From Methanolinea sp. (GTDB taxonomy: Archaea > Halobacteriota > Methanomicrobia > Methanomicrobiales > Methanospirillaceae): a DNA stretch of 62,832 bases. The position numbers and the translations under genes were made by a program. The stretch is from contig JALOPW010000006.1 in the NCBI GenBank assembly GCA_025453675.1, positions 1 to 62,832 of the forward strand, read 5' to 3'. Under the pieces are notes generated by a model. That model searched no databases, was not told the origin of the DNA, and saw only the letters and a list, made by a program, of their open reading frames with translations. Below, in pieces: positions 4,263 to 53,876 of this stretch (positions are counted from its first letter, which is position 1; the number at the start of each line of letters is the position of its first letter).

Positions 4263-5498
4263 ATGAAATTTTCATACGTGTGTGCAATTGTAGGCGTGCT
4301 GTTCTGTGCAGCCCTGATCGCCGGATGCATCAACCCTGCTCCGCCTTCGGGCACTCCGACGCCCACGACGCCCGCATCTGCTGGCACCGTCATCGTCACC
4401 TACGCCAAGGGAACGGGACCCATGCCTACCCTGCTCGGAACCGATCAGATCGATGGCTACATCGCCTGGCAACCCTTCGTTGAGGTCCCGCCACTGGTGG
4501 GAATTGGAAAAGTCCTGATCTATTCCGGCGATCTCCCCCCTGCAGGCAAATGGAAGAACCATCCCTGCTGCGTCTTCACTGCCACTGACGGGATGATTAA
4601 GGGCAACCCGGAACTCGCGAATGCCATGACGGCGGCGTTAATACTCTCCACGCGCTACCTGGAGGAACACCCGGATGAGAGCGCCGAGATTGTCGCAGAC
4701 TGGCTGGCAGGGAAGGGGAACTTCACCTACGGCGATATCTCCGTATCTTCGGTGGAGGTGCTGAAGAGGGCATTCCCCACGGTGAAGTTCGTGAATGAGC
4801 CAACCGATGGGTGGATGGACTCGAATATCGAATTCGTGTATGCCTTAAGAGACCTTAACGTCCTCACAGGGTCTCTTCAGAATTCCACAGACAGTGAGTC
4901 AAAGGAGATACTCTTTGACAAGAGCCCATATGTTGCCGCCAAGTCCATGATTGATGCAAGGAATATTGTTGCACCTGCCCCGGTGAAGGACCCGGTCGGG
5001 GTGGGTTACCTGATGTCAGACCATCATGCCGCGCTCTTTGTGGCCATCAAAAAATGGCAGTACTTCAATGACACCTATGGCATCGCCATCAAGCCCAGGG
5101 ATCTCTCCGCATCCAGGCCGGATACCGCAGACCTCCTCGTGAATGGAAAACCGGTTGCCGAGCTCAAGTTAGTCTCGGGTGACGCCGGTCCCCAGCTGAT
5201 GCAGCTGATGGCCACCGACAATATCCAGTTTGCACTGGTAGGTAATCCCCCGGCAATCTCAGCCGCAGACAAGGGTACTCCGGTCAAGATCATCATGGCC
5301 ATCAACTCGGAGGGATCCGGAGTGGTGGTGACCGAGGACTCCCCCGCTATCGACTGGAACAGCTTTGTCACATGGGCAAAAGAGCGATCTGCAGCCGGAA
5401 AACCGCTGAAGATCGCGGCTCCTGGAAAGGGCTCCATACAGGACGTCATGATCCGGTACTCCCTGGAAGCAAGCGGTTTATCAGTGAAGGAAGGATAA
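4263..5498 (+). CDS. ABC transporter substrate-binding lipoprotein, SsuA/TauA/NMT1-like, circularly permuted
   Basis: This is the extracytoplasmic binding protein of an importer in the nitrate/sulfonate/taurine group. A lipoprotein signal occupies residues 1-22 (lipobox ALIAGC, Cys22), followed by a Pro/Thr linker. Residues about 41-231 match what is normally the C-terminal half: KGTGPMPTLLGTDQIDGYIA, the NHPCCVF motif, NPELANAM, and a closing YVAAKSMIDA. Residues about 245-411 match the normal N-terminal half: GVGYLMSDHHAALFVA, GDAGPQLMQLM, FALVGNPPAI, PGKGSIQDVMIRY. The protein stops at SGLSVKEG, exactly where usual homologues continue into the segment now at residue 41. Length (411) is about that of one full binding protein, so this is a permutation, not a duplication. 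The permease starts 12 nt downstream. The substrate is unknown. The family is clear; natural permutation is inferred. Confidence 0.88.
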   Translation: MKFSYVCAIVGVLFCAALIAGCINPAPPSGTPTPTTPASAGTVIVTYAKGTGPMPTLLGTDQIDGYIAWQPFVEVPPLVGIGKVLIYSGDLPPAGKWKNHPCCVFTATDGMIKGNPELANAMTAALILSTRYLEEHPDESAEIVADWLAGKGNFTYGDISVSSVEVLKRAFPTVKFVNEPTDGWMDSNIEFVYALRDLNVLTGSLQNSTDSESKEILFDKSPYVAAKSMIDARNIVAPAPVKDPVGVGYLMSDHHAALFVAIKKWQYFNDTYGIAIKPRDLSASRPDTADLLVNGKPVAELKLVSGDAGPQLMQLMATDNIQFALVGNPPAISAADKGTPVKIIMAINSEGSGVVVTEDSPAIDWNSFVTWAKERSAAGKPLKIAAPGKGSIQDVMIRYSLEASGLSVKEG

Positions 5499-5510
5499 CC
5501 TTAGGGGACA

Positions 5511-6275
5511 ATGAGGTATCTCCGGTTCCTCCTCCCCATTCTTCTTGTCGTGGGCTGGGAGATCGCGTCCTGGATCATCAACAATCCATTTATTGTCCCC
5601 TCTCTTACAACCGTAATTCCCATACTGATGCATCCTCTCAGCACCGAGTATACCCTCGGGACCGGGAGCATGGTGGAGAATGCATCTATTAGTATCCAGC
5701 GTGTAGGCCTGGGATTCCTTGTCGCTGCGGCCGTAGCCATTCCGCTTGGCATCCTGATGGGGCGGTCGACCCTTCTCAACGATTTCTTTGACTCAACCAT
5801 CGAGCTCCTCCGGCCCATCCCTCCCCTGGCATGGGTCCCGCTGGCCCTCGCATGGTTCAAGATTGGGCTCACCTCCATTGTATTCATCATCTTCATAGGG
5901 GCGTTCTTCCCCATACTCCTGAACACCATCGACGGGGTGAGATCGGTCAAGAAGACATGGCTCGAAGTGGCAACCACGCTTGGGGCAAAAGAGCGGCAGA
6001 TAATGGCAAAGGTCGTACTCCCCGGGGCCGCGCCCACCATATGGACGGGGCTTCGGGTGGGGTTCGGGATCGCCTGGATGTGCGTCGTTGCCGCGGAGTG
6101 GCTTCCCGGCATCTCCAAGGGCCTCGGCTACCTGATACTCTATGCCTACAACTTCGGCCAGACCAACCTGATCATAGCCGGGATGGTGGTCATCGGGGTC
6201 ATCGGTCTTCTTATCGACTTCGTCTTCAAGCGGGTGGAGAGACGATGGTTCTCCTGGAGGGGGCTTGAGCGATGA
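5511..6275 (+). CDS. ABC transporter permease, SsuC/TauC-like
   Basis: This is the membrane channel subunit of the importer. The 254-residue protein has about six hydrophobic segments. It carries the BPD_transp_1 coupling-helix pattern EVATTLGAKERQIMAKVVLP near residue 155-175 and PIPPLAWVPLALAWF near residue 103. Both are characteristic of the nitrate/sulfonate/taurine permease group. It lies 12 nt after the binding-protein gene and 37 nt before the ATPase, so the three genes form one operon. Confidence 0.94.
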   Translation: MRYLRFLLPILLVVGWEIASWIINNPFIVPSLTTVIPILMHPLSTEYTLGTGSMVENASISIQRVGLGFLVAAAVAIPLGILMGRSTLLNDFFDSTIELLRPIPPLAWVPLALAWFKIGLTSIVFIIFIGAFFPILLNTIDGVRSVKKTWLEVATTLGAKERQIMAKVVLPGAAPTIWTGLRVGFGIAWMCVVAAEWLPGISKGLGYLILYAYNFGQTNLIIAGMVVIGVIGLLIDFVFKRVERRWFSWRGLER

Positions 6276-6312
6276 ATCAAATCCCTGGATACCCGCACGG
6301 AGGTGATCTTCG

Positions 6313-7077
6313 ATGAGCCTGGTTCTCAAAAACCTCTCCAAATCCTTTGCAGGGGAAGGAAAGGCTCAGGTGGAGGCACTCTCCCATATCGACCTCGAGG
6401 TCAGGGATGGCGAGTTCGTCTCGGTCCTGGGCCCCTCGGGGTGCGGGAAGACAACCCTGCTCCGGATCATCGCCGGGCTCGACCATGCAACAGGTGGGAC
6501 CATCCAGCTGGATGGGAGGTTGATTGATGGCCCCTGTCCCAGGATGGCCATGATATTCCAGGAATACTCTCTCTACCCCTGGAGGACGGTAATCGACAAC
6601 ATCGCGTTCGGCCTTGAGATGAAAGGCATGGAGAAGCAGGAGAGGAGGGAGAAGGCGCTTGAGTTCCTGGAACTGGTCGGCCTCGTCGATTTTGCCGGCA
6701 ACTATCCTTATGAGCTCTCGGGGGGCATGCGCCAGAGGGTGGCCGTGGCCCGGGCACTTGCGATCGACCCCCAGATTCTCCTGATGGACGAACCTTTCGG
6801 TGCCCTGGATGCCCAGACCAGGAACATGCTGCAGCGGGAACTCCTGGAGATATGGGAGAAGACCAGGAAGACTGTCCTCTTCGTCACCCACAGCGTGGAT
6901 GAGGCGGTTTTCCTCTCAGACCGGGTCGTGGTGCTGACATCACGCCCGGGAGCTATCAGGGAAGTGGTCCCCATCGATCTCCCGCGTCCCAGGGAGAGGA
7001 CCGGTGCAGAATTCGCCAGTATACGCCGGTATGTCCTGGATCACGTGGAACACTCCGCGAATCCCAGTAAGGTTTAA
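6313..7077 (+). CDS. ABC transporter ATP-binding protein, SsuB/TauB-like
   Basis: This is the ATPase that powers the importer. In the 254-residue protein I see Walker A GPSGCGKTT (about 36-44), a Q-loop in MIFQEYSLYPW, signature LSGGMRQRVAVARAL (about 136-150), Walker B ILLMDEPFGALD and the H-loop FVTHSVDEA. The start is well supported by a strong Shine-Dalgarno sequence, GGAGGTGATC at 6299-6308, just before ATG 6313. It is the last gene of the importer operon. Confidence 0.96.
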   Translation: MSLVLKNLSKSFAGEGKAQVEALSHIDLEVRDGEFVSVLGPSGCGKTTLLRIIAGLDHATGGTIQLDGRLIDGPCPRMAMIFQEYSLYPWRTVIDNIAFGLEMKGMEKQERREKALEFLELVGLVDFAGNYPYELSGGMRQRVAVARALAIDPQILLMDEPFGALDAQTRNMLQRELLEIWEKTRKTVLFVTHSVDEAVFLSDRVVVLTSRPGAIREVVPIDLPRPRERTGAEFASIRRYVLDHVEHSANPSKV

Positions 7078-11419: not shown

Positions 11420-11955
11420 GGCACGAGGTGCGATTCTCAGGGTTCGGAGGCCAGGGCATCATCCTGTCAGCGGTGATCCTCGGGAGAGCTGCGGTGATGT
11501 ACGATGGGAATTATGCGGTCCAGACCCAGGTCTACGGGCCGGAGGCCCGGGGAGGAGCTTCCATGAGCGCGGTGATCATCGATGACCAGCCCATCCTCTA
11601 CCCCAAGGTGACCACTCCTGATATCTTTGTAATCATGTCACAGGAAGGGTATGAGAAATACGGGGTCCAGGCAGGGGAGAATGCGGTAATGATCCTGGAC
11701 TCATCCCTGGTGCATTCCCGCCCCCGGTGCAGGTATGTCGAGATCCCGGCCACGCGTGAGGCAAAGCAGACTCTTGGCAGGGATATCGTGGCCAACATCA
11801 TCATGCTCGGGGCCCTGGTGAAGGTATCAGGGGTCGTGGGCGAGACCGCGATTGAGAGAGCCATCCTCGACTCTGTGCCCAAAGGTACTGAGTCGCTGAA
11901 CCTGAAAGCCATGAAACTTGGATTTGAACTTGCAGAGAAGGGGAATACGGTATGA
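11416..11955 (+). CDS. korC: 2-oxoglutarate:ferredoxin oxidoreductase, gamma subunit
   Basis: This 179-residue subunit starts RHEVRFSGFGGQGIILSAVI, the Rossmann-like glycine motif of the gamma family. It continues with QTQVYGPEARGGASMSAVI. It completes a full D-A-B-C set. It overlaps korB and sucC by 4 nt on each side. Confidence 0.94.
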   Translation: MRHEVRFSGFGGQGIILSAVILGRAAVMYDGNYAVQTQVYGPEARGGASMSAVIIDDQPILYPKVTTPDIFVIMSQEGYEKYGVQAGENAVMILDSSLVHSRPRCRYVEIPATREAKQTLGRDIVANIIMLGALVKVSGVVGETAIERAILDSVPKGTESLNLKAMKLGFELAEKGNTV

Positions 11956-13037
11956 AACTGTTGGAACACGAGGCCAGAAAGATATTCGGGGAGTACGGAA
12001 TCCCGGTTCCGAAGGGATTTGTCATCTGCTCTCCCGGGGAACTTGAGTCCCGGATGGGAGAACTGGGCACACGGTTTGTGTTAAAAGCCCAGGTGGAAGT
12101 GGGCGGACGCGGAAAATCAGGCGGAATCCTCATGGCCGATCCCTCCAGCGGGAAGCAGATGGCTGAGGAACTCCTTCAGAAGGAGATCAAGGGGGTTCCC
12201 GTACGGGAGATCCTGGCAGTGGAATACCTGGAGATCCAGCAGGAATATTATATGAGTATCGCCATCGACCGCTCCACCAAGCAGGCCCTGATCCTCTTCA
12301 CAGACCAGGGGGGGGTGGATATCGAGACCCTGGCAAAAGAACAGCCTGGTGCCGTGCGGAAGGCCTCACTCCCCCTCCTGATGCGGGATATCCCCCCGTT
12401 CATGGTCCGTGACCTCCTGGGGAAGGCCCCCAAGGAGCTTGCAAAGGTGATGAACCAGCTCTACAGGGTATTCTGTGAGAGAGATGCGCTCCTGGCGGAG
12501 ATCAACCCCCTGGTCACCACGCCCACAGGCGTCTTTGCTGCAGACGCGAAGCTTATCATCGACGATAATGCCCTCTCCCGGCAGGGTATCACCCTGAACA
12601 GGGACCTCACCGAGCGAGAGCGGGAGGCAGAGAAGCATGGGTTCTCCTATGTGGAGCTTGAAGGAGATATCGGGGTGATAGGCAACGGAGCCGGTCTTAC
12701 CATGGCAACTCTCGACCTTATCGAGTATTACGACGGCAAGGCGGCGAACTTCCTCGACGTAGGAGGTGGTGCCGACCAGGAGCGCGTGATGCATGCCGTC
12801 AGGCTGGTCGCGGCCGACCCCACTGTTCAGGTGATCGTGGTCAACCTCCTCGGCGGCATCACCCGCTGCGACGAGGTAGCCAGGGGGATCATCAGCGCAG
12901 GAATCAGCCAGCAGGTGATAGTCCGCCTTGCCGGGACCAATGAGGCTGAGGGGCGGCAGATCCTGGATGGCAGCGGGTACCGCATGATGGAGAGCATGGA
13001 GCAGGCGGTAAAGGCTGCAGTGGAGGCGGTGAAATGA
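11952..13037 (+). CDS. sucC: succinyl-CoA synthetase, beta subunit
   Basis: This subunit carries the nucleotide-binding ATP-grasp domain of succinate-CoA ligase. The 361-residue protein shows EHEARKIFGEYGIPVPKGFV, KAQVEVGGRGKSGGI, LAEINPLVTTPTGVFAADAK and ANFLDVGGGADQERV. Here it would make succinyl-CoA for the Kor enzyme. ATGA overlaps join it to korC and sucD. Confidence 0.95.
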   Translation: MKLLEHEARKIFGEYGIPVPKGFVICSPGELESRMGELGTRFVLKAQVEVGGRGKSGGILMADPSSGKQMAEELLQKEIKGVPVREILAVEYLEIQQEYYMSIAIDRSTKQALILFTDQGGVDIETLAKEQPGAVRKASLPLLMRDIPPFMVRDLLGKAPKELAKVMNQLYRVFCERDALLAEINPLVTTPTGVFAADAKLIIDDNALSRQGITLNRDLTEREREAEKHGFSYVELEGDIGVIGNGAGLTMATLDLIEYYDGKAANFLDVGGGADQERVMHAVRLVAADPTVQVIVVNLLGGITRCDEVARGIISAGISQQVIVRLAGTNEAEGRQILDGSGYRMMESMEQAVKAAVEAVK

Positions 13038-45339: not shown

Positions 45340-45873
45340 ATGTCATCTGAACCCGAGCAGCTCCGATCACCCTCTGTGTGGTCTGTGCTTTTCAGGCATC
45401 CGGCTTTCCTGGGAGCGGTTATTGGCATCCTGGCAGCATTCTCCCAGGCTCTTCTGATAAGTGCCGGTGGTCCCGAGGCCTACGGGTTCTGTGTCGCCTG
45501 CCATACCCGTGACCTGGTGAACGGGATGACCAATATCGTCACCCATACCAACCTGGCCCTGGCTGCCATCTCGAAGAACGCAATACTCCCCGTGATGAGT
45601 GTGGTCGGCGTGCTCATCGGTGGTTATCTTGCCGCCCGGCAATACAGGGAGCATAAGATCAGGAAAGGGACCATAAGGGAGTATGCCATCTATTTCGTGG
45701 CCGGGATCCTGGTCCTGAATCTTGCTATGATATTTGGGGGATGCCCGTACCGGGCAGCGCTCAGGACAGGGTATGGTGATCTCAATGCCATTGCATTTAT
45801 CGTTGCTATGGCAGCAGGGGTCATCCTGGGGGCATTCCTGATGCTCAAGAGGGCTGAGAAGGAGGATGGCTGA
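45340..45873 (+). CDS. YeeE/YedE half-size membrane protein, first copy
   Basis: This is probably half of a channel for a sulfur compound such as thiosulfate, or for a selenium compound. The protein has about 177 residues and four or five membrane helices. It has GFCVACHTRDL (about 52-62) and FGGCPYRAALRTGYGD (about 134-149); the GGCP-R motif is diagnostic of YeeE/YedE (DUF395). Full-length bacterial relatives are about twice as long and contain both halves in one chain. The gene overlaps the next one by one base. TTG 45319 is another possible start. Confidence 0.86.
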   Translation: MSSEPEQLRSPSVWSVLFRHPAFLGAVIGILAAFSQALLISAGGPEAYGFCVACHTRDLVNGMTNIVTHTNLALAAISKNAILPVMSVVGVLIGGYLAARQYREHKIRKGTIREYAIYFVAGILVLNLAMIFGGCPYRAALRTGYGDLNAIAFIVAMAAGVILGAFLMLKRAEKEDG

Positions 45874-46397
45874 TGGCAACCGGGATACTCCCCACGGAAG
45901 CGGCGGTCATCGCTGTTCCCATCGTGACCCTCCTCCTGGGCCTCCTCATCGGTTACCTGGCCCAGAGGTCAGGGTATTGTTCTATTGGAGGTTTCCGTGA
46001 CTATTTCCTGTTCCGGCATACACGCCTCCTCTCAGGGTACCTCACCCTGATCGCTGCATCATTTACCGGGTATCTCCTCTTCTGGTTCTTCACTCCGGCC
46101 GCTATGGAGCACTTTTTCTGGGCGTTGTCCAGCGGACCGGCATACCCAATGCCGGGGGCTCCAGGGGGCCTGAATGCCGCTGCTTATCTCATATTTGCCA
46201 TCATCCCCGGGTTTCTGGTCGGATTCATCGCGGTGCTCCTGGGGGGCTGCCCCATACGCCAGACGGTGATGGCGTCGGAGGGAAACTACAAGGCCGCGTG
46301 GTTCTTTGTGGGGATGTGCGTGGGTTCGATCCTGTTTGCTGCAATCGTCTCCGGCTGGGTCGTCTCACTCATGCGGGCTCTTGGATTTGGAGTGTGA
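45873..46397 (+). CDS. YeeE/YedE half-size membrane protein, second copy
   Basis: This is the second half of the putative sulfur-compound channel. The 174-residue protein has about five membrane helices. It has QRSGYCSIGGFRDYFLFRH (about 31-49) and VLLGGCPIRQTVMASEGNYK (about 122-141), the YeeE/YedE hallmarks. The two half-size proteins carry complementary Cys motifs and would pair to form one channel. It is followed 42 nt later by the DsrE-type fusion. Confidence 0.88.
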   Translation: MATGILPTEAAVIAVPIVTLLLGLLIGYLAQRSGYCSIGGFRDYFLFRHTRLLSGYLTLIAASFTGYLLFWFFTPAAMEHFFWALSSGPAYPMPGAPGGLNAAAYLIFAIIPGFLVGFIAVLLGGCPIRQTVMASEGNYKAAWFFVGMCVGSILFAAIVSGWVVSLMRALGFGV

Positions 46398-46439
46398 GTG
46401 GAGCATGTGTGAGCAATTCCGGGGGATGAGATCGGTAGT

Positions 46440-47630
46440 ATGACTTCGCGTTCATTCTTCTTCCTCTGCGGGGAGGTTCCACCCGAACGGGCACACTGGA
46501 TCAGGGATGCGGCATCTCCCTTATCCGGGCAGGCAACGACTGGACCTGATCCCCCCTTCACTCTCTATCTCACCGGAGAAGCCCTGGTGAGCCTCGCGGA
46601 CAGTCGGAGTGAGGAATACTGGCATTCAATAATGTATGAGACCGGAATGCGGGTAATCGTAGACAGTGACGAGCTCAGACTCCACGGGCTGCTCGGCACC
46701 ATCAAGGAGAAATACCCGGGGATTCTCACCCCCGGTGATGTGAATGCCGGAGAGGAGTTGACATTCTGGCATTCCCTGGTGGCATACCTCAAAGGAGAGA
46801 ACAAGGCCTGCGACAGAGCGGCCTTCCTCCTCTGCGAGGGGCCATATATGAGCCGAACCTCTGTGTATATGCTGCGGTTCCTGAAAATCATAGTGGAATT
46901 AGGAGGCCAGCCGGAACTGTATGCCTATCTCGACGGGGTTCATGCGGCTCATCTGGACCAGCACCCTTCCGAATTCGAGAATATCGGCGAGGGAGTGTCT
47001 GTCCTGGCCACGGTCACCGGGGAGGATGAGGGAGAGGGGTGGTTTGGGGCATGTTCACGGTGCGCCACCGCCCGCGGGTATTTCGTAAAGGATCAGGATA
47101 CGGGTGCCTGCAGGCCCTCTTCCTGTATTCCCGCCGTCACCATCAGGCCACTGAAGGAGATCCTGGAGAGATTTGCGGGATCTCATCCCATCCTCGCTCA
47201 ATGTTCCGGCGGTACGTTCCCGTCCCGGCCGGGGCAGGAGACGTTCCCCCCTGGTCTCAACATTCTGATCACCTACAGCCCCTATGTATCAGAATGGACC
47301 TTTGGAGGGCTCTCCCTGGCAGTCGCAGCTGCCATGGGAGGGTTAAAGACCCGTGTGCTCTTCATTGAGCAGGGTGTGTATGCATTGTGCGGAGACCATA
47401 CCGTCCTCCCGGAGGATCGCGTCTTCAACGTACAGGAGATGGTCGAGGCGACCATGGATATCCCCCTGCTGCACTACGCTGTCTATTCCCCTTCACTTGA
47501 GGAGAGAGGCCTGGAGCTCACGGGGACCTTTTCCGGGATGGAGAGAGTTGATGCGGAGGGGATTGGTCAATTCCTCTTCAGTGAACAGGGGGAGGACACA
47601 CTTCACCTGTCCAGGATAATATTTTTCTGA
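46440..47630 (+). CDS. three-part DsrE/DsrF/DsrH-like (TusBCD-like) fusion
   Basis: The 396-residue cytoplasmic protein seems to be three DsrE-type domains in one chain. The N-terminal part (about 35-105: FTLYLTGEALVSLADS, YETGMRVIVDSDELRLHGL) is DsrE-like but divergent. The middle (about 125-250) is TusD/DsrE-like, with the candidate sulfur-carrying Cys pair CSRCATARGY (205-214) and further Cys at 224 and 229. The C-terminal part (about 273-396: LNILITYSPYVSEWTFGGLS, VLFIEQGVYALC) is TusC/DsrF-like. In bacteria these domains relay persulfide sulfur. Its neighbours, a putative sulfur channel and a TusA-like protein, support a sulfur relay. The family of the first domain is the least certain. 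Confidence 0.75.
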   Translation: MTSRSFFFLCGEVPPERAHWIRDAASPLSGQATTGPDPPFTLYLTGEALVSLADSRSEEYWHSIMYETGMRVIVDSDELRLHGLLGTIKEKYPGILTPGDVNAGEELTFWHSLVAYLKGENKACDRAAFLLCEGPYMSRTSVYMLRFLKIIVELGGQPELYAYLDGVHAAHLDQHPSEFENIGEGVSVLATVTGEDEGEGWFGACSRCATARGYFVKDQDTGACRPSSCIPAVTIRPLKEILERFAGSHPILAQCSGGTFPSRPGQETFPPGLNILITYSPYVSEWTFGGLSLAVAAAMGGLKTRVLFIEQGVYALCGDHTVLPEDRVFNVQEMVEATMDIPLLHYAVYSPSLEERGLELTGTFSGMERVDAEGIGQFLFSEQGEDTLHLSRIIFF

Positions 47631-47651
47631 CATGAACAGGAGAGAACACAC

Positions 47652-47873
47652 ATGAGTACCAAAGGAATTGCGGATTTCACTGACCTGACCTGTACCAACC
47701 TGATGATCAAGCTCAAGATTCTGCTGAAGAAGCAGGTCGATAGTGAACCACTTGAGTTCTATGCCACACGGGAGCAGGTGGACAACACCTGCTCCCAGTT
47801 TACCCATCAGCAGTACGAAGTGAACTGGGACCAATCGGGCGAGAACCAGTACCTGGTGAGTATGAAGAGATAA
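47652..47873 (+). CDS. TusA/SirA-like protein with altered active site
   Basis: The 73-residue protein has the TusA length and pattern. DFTDLTCTNLMIKLKILLKK aligns with the TusA helix that normally reads CPxP; here it is CTNL, so the Cys (residue 14) is kept and both prolines are lost. QYEVNWDQSGENQYLVSMK is the final beta hairpin. It would accept or pass on sulfur as a persulfide. It is the last gene of the operon, 21 nt after the DsrE-type fusion. Confidence 0.72.
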   Translation: MSTKGIADFTDLTCTNLMIKLKILLKKQVDSEPLEFYATREQVDNTCSQFTHQQYEVNWDQSGENQYLVSMKR

Positions 47874-53133: not shown

Positions 53134-53751
53134 TCATTGACCTTTCCGTTCCTCGGCACAGGGGATGCAGAGGAGTGTTCCACCTACCCGCCGTGTCTTT
53201 GCATCCGCCACCGACTCCCCGCAATGGTCGCAGGTGACAGAGGTGAATATGCGGGCCTTCGGAGGGCTTTTCATATTGACTTCCCGGATCGTCAGTATAT
53301 CACTGGCCGGCGCATTGAGAATACGCCCGATGTTCTTCTGCTTCAGTTCCTCGAAACGCTTCTCCTCGGCAGGCGTGGCCTGGCCGGAGAACACCTTTTC
53401 CCGTAAGGTGTCAAATTCCTCGCAGTCAGGCTCCTCCCGCCGGGGGAAGGTGATGCGCACTGCTCTGCCATTCTTCCTGTTGAGGAAAGAAAAAACGTGC
53501 TTTCCGTAGTCATTGATGACCAGGTTGCCTTTCCCCGCAGTCGTCCCGGCCACCACCTGGATAGCATCCACTCCGCAGGCATCGGTCTCGCAGATGGCCA
53601 CCAGTTCCTCGTCCTCTGGCCTCTCAACACCCAGGGCCTCCATGGCGGCGATAGCAGCCCTGAATCCAAGGGCCAGCCCGGGGCAGGAGTGGCCATGGAA
53701 GCTGATGCAGTCGGAGAATGTTCTTTTCTCTGTTGCCGGATGAGCATTCAT
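53134..53751 (-). CDS. fmdE: FmdE-family protein (formylmethanofuran dehydrogenase subunit E-like)
   Basis: The protein is about 205 residues from ATG 53751. CISFHGHSCPGLALGFRAAI (about 15-34) is the FmdE hallmark, with Cys and His residues that bind metal. CETDACGVDAIQVVAGTTAG and KGNLVINDYGK follow. The C-terminal CDHCGESVADAKTRRVGGTL followed by CIPCAEE is a zinc ribbon. Homologues accompany formylmethanofuran dehydrogenase in methanogens, but FmdE is often found alone and its exact task is not proven. Confidence 0.9.
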   Translation of the reverse strand: MNAHPATEKRTFSDCISFHGHSCPGLALGFRAAIAAMEALGVERPEDEELVAICETDACGVDAIQVVAGTTAGKGNLVINDYGKHVFSFLNRKNGRAVRITFPRREEPDCEEFDTLREKVFSGQATPAEEKRFEELKQKNIGRILNAPASDILTIREVNMKSPPKARIFTSVTCDHCGESVADAKTRRVGGTLLCIPCAEERKGQ

Positions 53752-53876
53752 TCCAATCTCACTTCCTATATTGTGCGGGGAAGTATGAGAACGCAATGGA
53801 TCTCCCAGCGAATGATTCCCTTTCGGGGGAGTTCTGAAGTCTGAATCTCCAGGAACTCTTTCCAATCAGAGAGCAT

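Follow-up and report, generated by a model that had tools for sequence, protein, structure and literature searches.

The question raised by this locus is what four closely spaced genes do in the genome of an archaeon assigned to Methanolinea sp. The stretch analyzed (the window; 62,832 nucleotides) is contig C14 of a genome of 1.84 Mb that is 94% complete, and the nearest named relatives of this genome are Methanolinea and other metagenome-assembled genomes (MAGs) of the Methanoregulaceae. A first-pass annotation had read four close plus-strand genes at 45340-47873 as a candidate module for sulfur import and relay. All four open reading frames were confirmed at this place, and they are called YA, YB, DSR and tN here. 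Sequence, fold and synteny agree with the proposal that a channel, a TusBCD-like single chain and a TusA-like carrier are brought together in one operon. As judged from sequence comparison, the cassette very probably brings in and passes on sulfur, or a close analogue of it. We give about even chances to the fuller reading, in which the cassette imports and relays a chalcogen (sulfane sulfur) and the relay ends, probably, at the sulfido ligand of the molybdenum or tungsten (Mo/W) bis-molybdopterin guanine dinucleotide cofactor (bisMGD).

The cassette genes lie head to tail on the plus strand with gaps of at most 42 nucleotides (Table 1): the reading frames of YA and YB share one base (TGATG), YB and DSR are separated by 42 nucleotides, and DSR and tN by 21. 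Because of this close spacing and the conserved gene order, the four genes were inferred to form one operon. A scan for sigma-70-type promoters and terminators scored near shuffle level, sigma-70 being the wrong promoter type for archaea. The order YA-YB-DSR-tN was found in 12/12 other members of the genus that were searched, as well as in three further genomes (G019, G021 and G027). A scan of named genomes, which overlaps this set, revealed it in 18 loci, or 19/19 window-type loci when the window is counted, and the order extends to further Methanoregulaceae. Since the gene order is kept in all 19 loci, the cassette is real and conserved, and not a chance arrangement. The search for the same order elsewhere in the Methanomicrobiales, which had been suggested as a check, thus supported the module, and the outcome named as its refutation, homologues of the four genes unlinked in other genomes, did not occur.

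Table 1. Genes, cysteine motifs and one further transporter locus of the window
Feature	Position	Strand	Description
YA	45340..45873	+	half-size YedE/YeeE membrane protein, 177 amino acids
YA C51 and C54	45490-45501	+	CVACH; invariant in 20 homologues
YA C135	45742-45744	+	GGCPYR; invariant in 20 homologues
YB	45873..46397	+	half-size YedE/YeeE membrane protein, 174 amino acids
YB C36	45978-45980	+	RSGYCSIGGFRD; invariant in 20 homologues
YB C126	46248-46250	+	GGCPIR; invariant in 20 homologues
DSR	46440..47630	+	three DsrE-like domains in one chain, 396 amino acids
DSR C205 and C208	47052..47063	+	CSRC, middle domain; C205 at the place of the TusD/DsrE active-site Cys
tN	47652..47873	+	TusA-fold carrier, 73 amino acids
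tN C14	47691-47702	+	CTNL motif; replaces CPxP
tN C47	47790-47792	+	DNTC; second conserved Cys
NitT/TauT-like ABC (ATP-binding cassette) transporter	4263-7077	+	NMT1-like binding protein, permease, ATPase

Both channel proteins scored above the cut-off of 27 bits of the Pfam family Sulf_transp (PF04143; YA 31.1 bits, YB 34.9 bits), with YA covering the C-terminal half and YB the N-terminal half of the profile, and four hydrophobic segments were found in each. The top NCBIfam model of both halves was TIGR04112 seleno_YedE ('putative selenium transporter'; YA 70 bits, YB 83 bits), and neither half reached its equivalog threshold of 200 bits. Together with the invariant Cys residues, the PF04143 matches agree with the earlier description of two half-size YeeE/YedE proteins, each with a Cys motif. 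C135 of YA aligned with Cys293 of the YeeE protein of S. thermophila (6leo). C126 of YB, which stands in an equivalent invariant GGC, would correspond to Cys91 of the same protein because of the half of PF04143 that YB matches; the YB profile gave no match against PDB sequences. Split YedE genes of archaea were known before (PMC5322559), and PmpA/PmpB likewise represent the YeeE family as two half-size proteins. A separate, PmpAB-like pair of half-size YeeE proteins was observed in the same genome (contig C48, L064 7138-9663, minus strand), where it adjoins a metallo-beta-lactamase/rhodanese protein.

DSR was found above the threshold of PF02635 in Pfam (29.2 bits versus 22.7, in two stretches). 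Its AlphaFold2 (AF2) model, obtained with 60 related sequences as input (predicted local distance difference test score, pLDDT, 91.3; predicted template modelling score 0.92), showed three units (residues 4-81, 126-211 and 272-355), each with the strand (E) and helix (H) pattern E-H-E-H-H-E-H. The middle unit matched DsrE (2hy5_A) and TusD (2d1p_A), both with Z 17.0 (Foldseek/VIA), and the C-terminal unit matched DsrF by profile (E 3e-4); the TusC model TIGR03010 was weak on DSR (19 bits, cut-off 94). When the N-terminal unit was compared with PDB sequences, only a chance-level annexin match was obtained, and its profile-profile comparison with the other two DSR domains was not significant. 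This unit carries a '..DELxLxGL' motif that we take to be TusB-like, and it is likely to be DsrE-like, as the AF2 pattern and the motif positions suggest. The domain order is accordingly given as DsrH/TusB-like, DsrE/TusD-like and DsrF/TusC-like. Of the three DsrE-type domains initially proposed, the middle and C-terminal ones are thus backed by fold and by profile, respectively, and the N-terminal one by AF2 pattern and motif only; a fusion whose domains lack the DsrE fold, the second refuting outcome that had been named, was not what the model showed.

The fourth protein, tN, had no match in Pfam or NCBIfam, the threshold of PF01206 (TusA) being unmet. Its AF2 model (pLDDT 86.7) had a TusA fold, and the top VIA matches were the SirA-like 3hz7 (Z 9.2), the YeeD part of 8k1r (9.0) and E. 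coli TusA 3lvj (8.9). The Cys of the CTNL motif was invariant in 29 homologues. Fold and Cys agree with the original view of a TusA-like carrier that keeps its Cys while CPxP has become CTNL; C47, a further conserved Cys, is added to that view here.

Besides the window-type cassette, a five-gene form was found, YA-YB-tC-DSR-tN, in which tC is a TusA protein with CPYC that scores above the Pfam PF01206 cut-off. It was carried by Methanoregula and related MAGs, by genus g12 (L166, L169), by Lokiarchaeota (L083, L088, L125) and by two loci with the labels Prometheoarchaeum (L094) and Bathyarchaeota (L101, possibly misbinned); another Lokiarchaeota locus, L091, ends at the contig end. A third group consisted of DSR alone (solo copies). 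tC was absent from 19/19 window-type loci, and the DNTC Cys was present in all window-type copies of tN and in 0/15 five-gene copies. These patterns suggest that tN may have taken over a job of tC, possibly in a single event. The window-type proteins grouped in a clade of their own with support 0.999, as did the Asgard/Bathyarchaeota proteins with 0.93; the tree is midpoint-rooted and its direction uncertain. A second DSR copy, broken over two frames and with one in-frame TGA, was seen near an intact copy in L056 (3683-4534 and below; G016:C1:845291-846533).

The comparison of these three groups also bears on how channel and relay are connected. DSR carries a CxxC and not just one Cys; C205 was placed by our own alignment, by its spacing to the RG seven residues after the Cys. 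C205 was kept in 19/19 window-type, 15/16 five-gene and 21/25 solo copies (55/60), and C208 in 19/19, 15/16 and 8/25, respectively. The second Cys of the CxxC was therefore present in 34/35 DSR copies with YA/YB and in 8/25 without (Fisher 4e-8, kinship uncorrected), and in the lone exception, L119, DSR is separate from YA-YB and tN is missing. The second Cys thus tracks the presence of YA/YB, and channel and relay go together.

The bacterial counterparts, which had been regarded as separate pieces, are already known together as the YTD cluster (yeeE-tusA-dsrEFH type II; PMC13293266), where a YedE-type channel, TusA and DsrE/F/H-like proteins likewise form one cluster with the active Cys on the DsrE part. 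Here, too, a channel stands in synteny with TusA-like and DsrEFH-like parts, whereas dsrE, dsrF and dsrH are fused and not separate genes. Unlike in YTD, YedE is split, DsrH, DsrE and DsrF form one chain, there is an additional CTNL carrier and no CPxP/CPYC TusA, and the relatives of the cassette adjoin fwd, fdh and other Mo/W genes, not dsr genes. Because the YTD survey (PMC13293266) demanded three separate dsr genes in synteny, a fused form would escape it. TusBCD and DsrEFH type I also consist of DsrE-fold units with the active Cys in the TusD/DsrE-like unit, but they are three separate subunits in a heterohexamer, while DSR has no separate subunits and is one 396-residue chain of order H-E-F, with a CxxC in place of one Cys and with very low identity. 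The nearest known systems are the YTD cluster and the pairs YedE/YedF and FdhT/FdhU; the DsrHEF chain, the family of CTNL carriers and the gene neighbourhood are new, and the cassette is an archaeal counterpart of the YTD cluster; no paper describing the archaeal form with split channel, fused DsrHEF and CTNL carrier was found among the open-licence PMC literature searched.

The YeeE-YeeD (TsuA-TsuB) system of thiosulfate uptake is similar in that a channel works with a TusA-fold partner and the equivalent of Cys293 is kept; the cassette differs from it in the split channel, the CTNL motif and the extra triple-DsrE protein. The cassette might accordingly be a device of general sulfur assimilation, importing thiosulfate or sulfane sulfur like TsuA-TsuB and feeding Fe-S clusters, cysteine or tRNA thiolation with no role in Mo/W enzymes. 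This would be in keeping with the fold of tN, which resembles YeeD and TusA, with the need of YeeE for YeeD as an essential partner in thiosulfate uptake (PMC11073785), and with the window-type loci, which mostly lack Mo/W neighbours. Moreover, PF01206 proteins are absent from the window's genome, in which no DsrE protein besides DSR was seen either, so that the cassette is possibly its only such relay; the genome-wide search with PF02635 was empty at E 0.001, which is a weak test, since DSR itself passes by hmmscan. The separate PmpAB-like pair with its rhodanese speaks against general assimilation, as does the repeated linkage of the relatives to fwd, fdh, moeA and fdhD in differing arrangements, and this explanation is rather unlikely.

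The linkage itself was seen as follows. Five-gene and solo DSR copies adjoin fwd/fmd operons, MoeA, Mod or Tup/Wtp-like transporters and fdhAB (fwd and fdh genes were labelled by sequence recognition, with TIGR03129 in addition for fwdB), and further neighbours are nitroreductase, the sulfite-reductase-like protein Dsr-LP, OsmC and C-GCAxxG proteins. Among the 15 such copies in genomes with mapped fwdB, 12 had a full fwdB no more than 10 kb away, compared with ~5% by chance at six fwdB per genome (binomial 6e-11, kinship uncorrected). The arrangements around fwd, MoeA, Mod/Tup and fdh differ between groups. In genus g29, which belongs to another family of the order and was reached via the CTNL carrier, an aminotransferase V gene and FdhD were found beside YA-YB-tC-tN-OsmC in 4/4 loci (L173-L176), upstream in the same direction in three and divergent in L175. 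The genes fwdDBAC adjoin this set in two of the four loci, and fwd, Dsr-LP or MoeA lie nearby. As to the neighbours that the first-pass annotation had suggested looking for, no rhodanese was present beside the window cassette, and cysteine desulfurase-type genes adjoin the copies of relatives only, as do FdhD genes.

FdhD and the cysteine desulfurase IscS sulfurate bis-MGD for formate dehydrogenase (PMC12140954). In C. jejuni, the activity of this enzyme is under the control of FdhT and FdhU (PMC4178425, a review that does not name their families), a system in which the tungstate transporter TupABC is also named. FdhT is YedE-like too (NCBIfam NF033796 'YedE/FdhT'), and FdhU was named YedF by Lin 2015; in contrast to the present cassette, no DsrEFH part occurs there, and the C. 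jejuni enzyme is selenium-dependent and contains selenocysteine (Sec). Maturation of Mo/W enzymes was favoured because the relatives adjoin fwd and FdhD, because FdhD and IscS sulfurate bis-MGD and because FdhT and FdhU control formate dehydrogenase. As a main destination of the sulfur, Mo/W-cofactor maturation is plausible from these comparisons, at slightly less than an even chance.

Several observations weigh against this destination. No fwd, FdhD or MoeA gene adjoins the window's own cassette; one window-type cassette (L071) stands beside fdhAB, and the other window-type copies have no such neighbours. The closest FdhD linkage lies in the four g29 loci, in which no DSR was found. The neighbourhood may be due to co-regulation and not to function, and the substrate, the direction of transport and the transfer to the acceptor are inferred. 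Two further ideas were rejected. An FmdE-family protein with a zinc-finger tail is encoded 5.3 kb downstream of the cassette (53134-53865, minus strand; PF02663, 150 bits), and as a local link to Mo it was discarded, being not conserved beside other cassettes. A cassette that replaces FdhD was likewise dismissed, FdhD being present in 59/61 genomes of the order.

Selenium was considered as the cargo in place of sulfur, the cassette being then a YedE/YedF-type module for uptake and handling of selenium species. The YedE/YedF pair (TIGR04112, TIGR03527; PMC5322559) shares with the cassette the best NCBIfam model of YA and YB, the accompanying TusA and DsrE domains and, in the Asgard copies, the proximity of SelD; it differs in that the cassette has no YedF fusion, that the window lineage lacks SelD and that each channel half falls below the family cut-off. 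SelD adjoins the five-gene cassette in L083 (~11850-12872), L125 (to 12856) and L101 (3586-4497, minus strand), with the active-site motif G-TGA-S-C-K in frame (HG-TGA-SCK, FG-TGA-SCK), which marks it as a selenocysteine SelD. The Methanoregula loci, moreover, hold gene types of bacterial selenium clusters (PMC5322559), namely a cysteine desulfurase/Sec-lyase-like protein, a double-cubane reductase and a coenzyme A-type activase. However, SelD was above the cut-off in only 2/232 genomes of the class, the window genome not among them, and these two genomes (L165/L167; G208, G151) have SelD without this cassette. In M. maripaludis, furthermore, selenium transport was not clearly affected when YedE was deleted (PMC11097638). 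A selenium module is therefore an improbable explanation of the window's cassette, and a selenophosphate-dependent role in its lineage was rejected, SelD being absent. The family as a whole probably handles chalcogens, with selenium as the cargo in Asgard archaea and, most likely, sulfur in the lineage of the window. In L165/L167, an unfused DsrF-like gene, a CPIP TusA, SelD and another uncharacterised gene were observed in a row.

Two further explanations were drawn from neighbouring genes. Dsr-LP genes are common neighbours in Methanoregula-type and g29 loci, and bacterial type II DsrEFH hands sulfur to DsrC (PMC13293266); the cassette might thus belong to a sulfite/sulfane redox pathway, handing sulfur to Dsr-LP in the manner of DsrEFH type II. 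This is very unlikely, given that Dsr-LP stands beside no window-type cassette and that in vivo reduction of sulfite by Dsr-LP is unsupported (PMC3448663). A conserved 190-residue protein (SEYMEAFFGVEL; L097 7865-8434, with homologues in 13 loci and in L173-L176), which had no Pfam or NCBIfam match, was observed mostly near Dsr-LP and the cassette. Alternatively, channel and carriers might signal the presence of sulfane sulfur or detoxify it, controlled by a repressor of the ArsR type. In 7/19 window-type loci a gene of the ArsR family was found close to the cassette, in either orientation, and ArsR-type repressors of Hyphomicrobium sense sulfane sulfur (PMC12423496), but none was observed next to the window's own cassette and ArsR is frequently within a separate divergent permease operon, which leaves sensing or homeostasis with hardly any likelihood. 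The seven loci are L068, L071, L075, L076, L077, L079 and L082, where permease, DGC-domain and CcdA-like genes often accompany ArsR.

In the favoured reading of import, relay and delivery to Mo/W enzymes, YA and YB would pair as a YedE-type channel for a reduced sulfur species, for example thiosulfate or zero-valent sulfur. The sulfur would be accepted on cytoplasmic Cys residues, C14 of tN and C205, with C208, of DSR, which, according to its modelled fold, would unite in a single chain the parts that TusBCD/DsrEFH divide among three. The relay would end, as the relatives suggest, at the machinery that adds the sulfido ligand to the Mo/W-bisMGD of formylmethanofuran and formate dehydrogenases. 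A more tentative extension, less likely than not, is an archaeal pathway, not described before, that loads chalcogen directly after its import, selenium in Asgard archaea, onto the Mo/W-bisMGD of CO2-reducing enzymes; split YedE, CTNL carrier and DsrHEF would act ahead of FdhD or alongside it, and formylmethanofuran dehydrogenase would be among the enzymes served. The first-pass suggestion of an unusual sulfur source for a methanogen was not followed: because of the comparative neighbourhoods, the results point to where the sulfur goes (Mo/W enzymes, or a use of selenium in Asgard archaea) and not to a special growth substrate.

Formylmethanofuran dehydrogenase fixes CO2 at the entry of methanogenesis, and to our knowledge no sulfuration factor of this enzyme has been established. 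For the study of sulfur transfer by TusBCD/DsrEFH, the single-chain DsrHEF offers a handy one-gene object; it also serves as a marker of clusters that surveys requiring three separate dsr genes would miss. If the relay does end at formylmethanofuran dehydrogenase, the uptake of sulfur or selenium would be tied to methane formation, with candidate proteins named for it.

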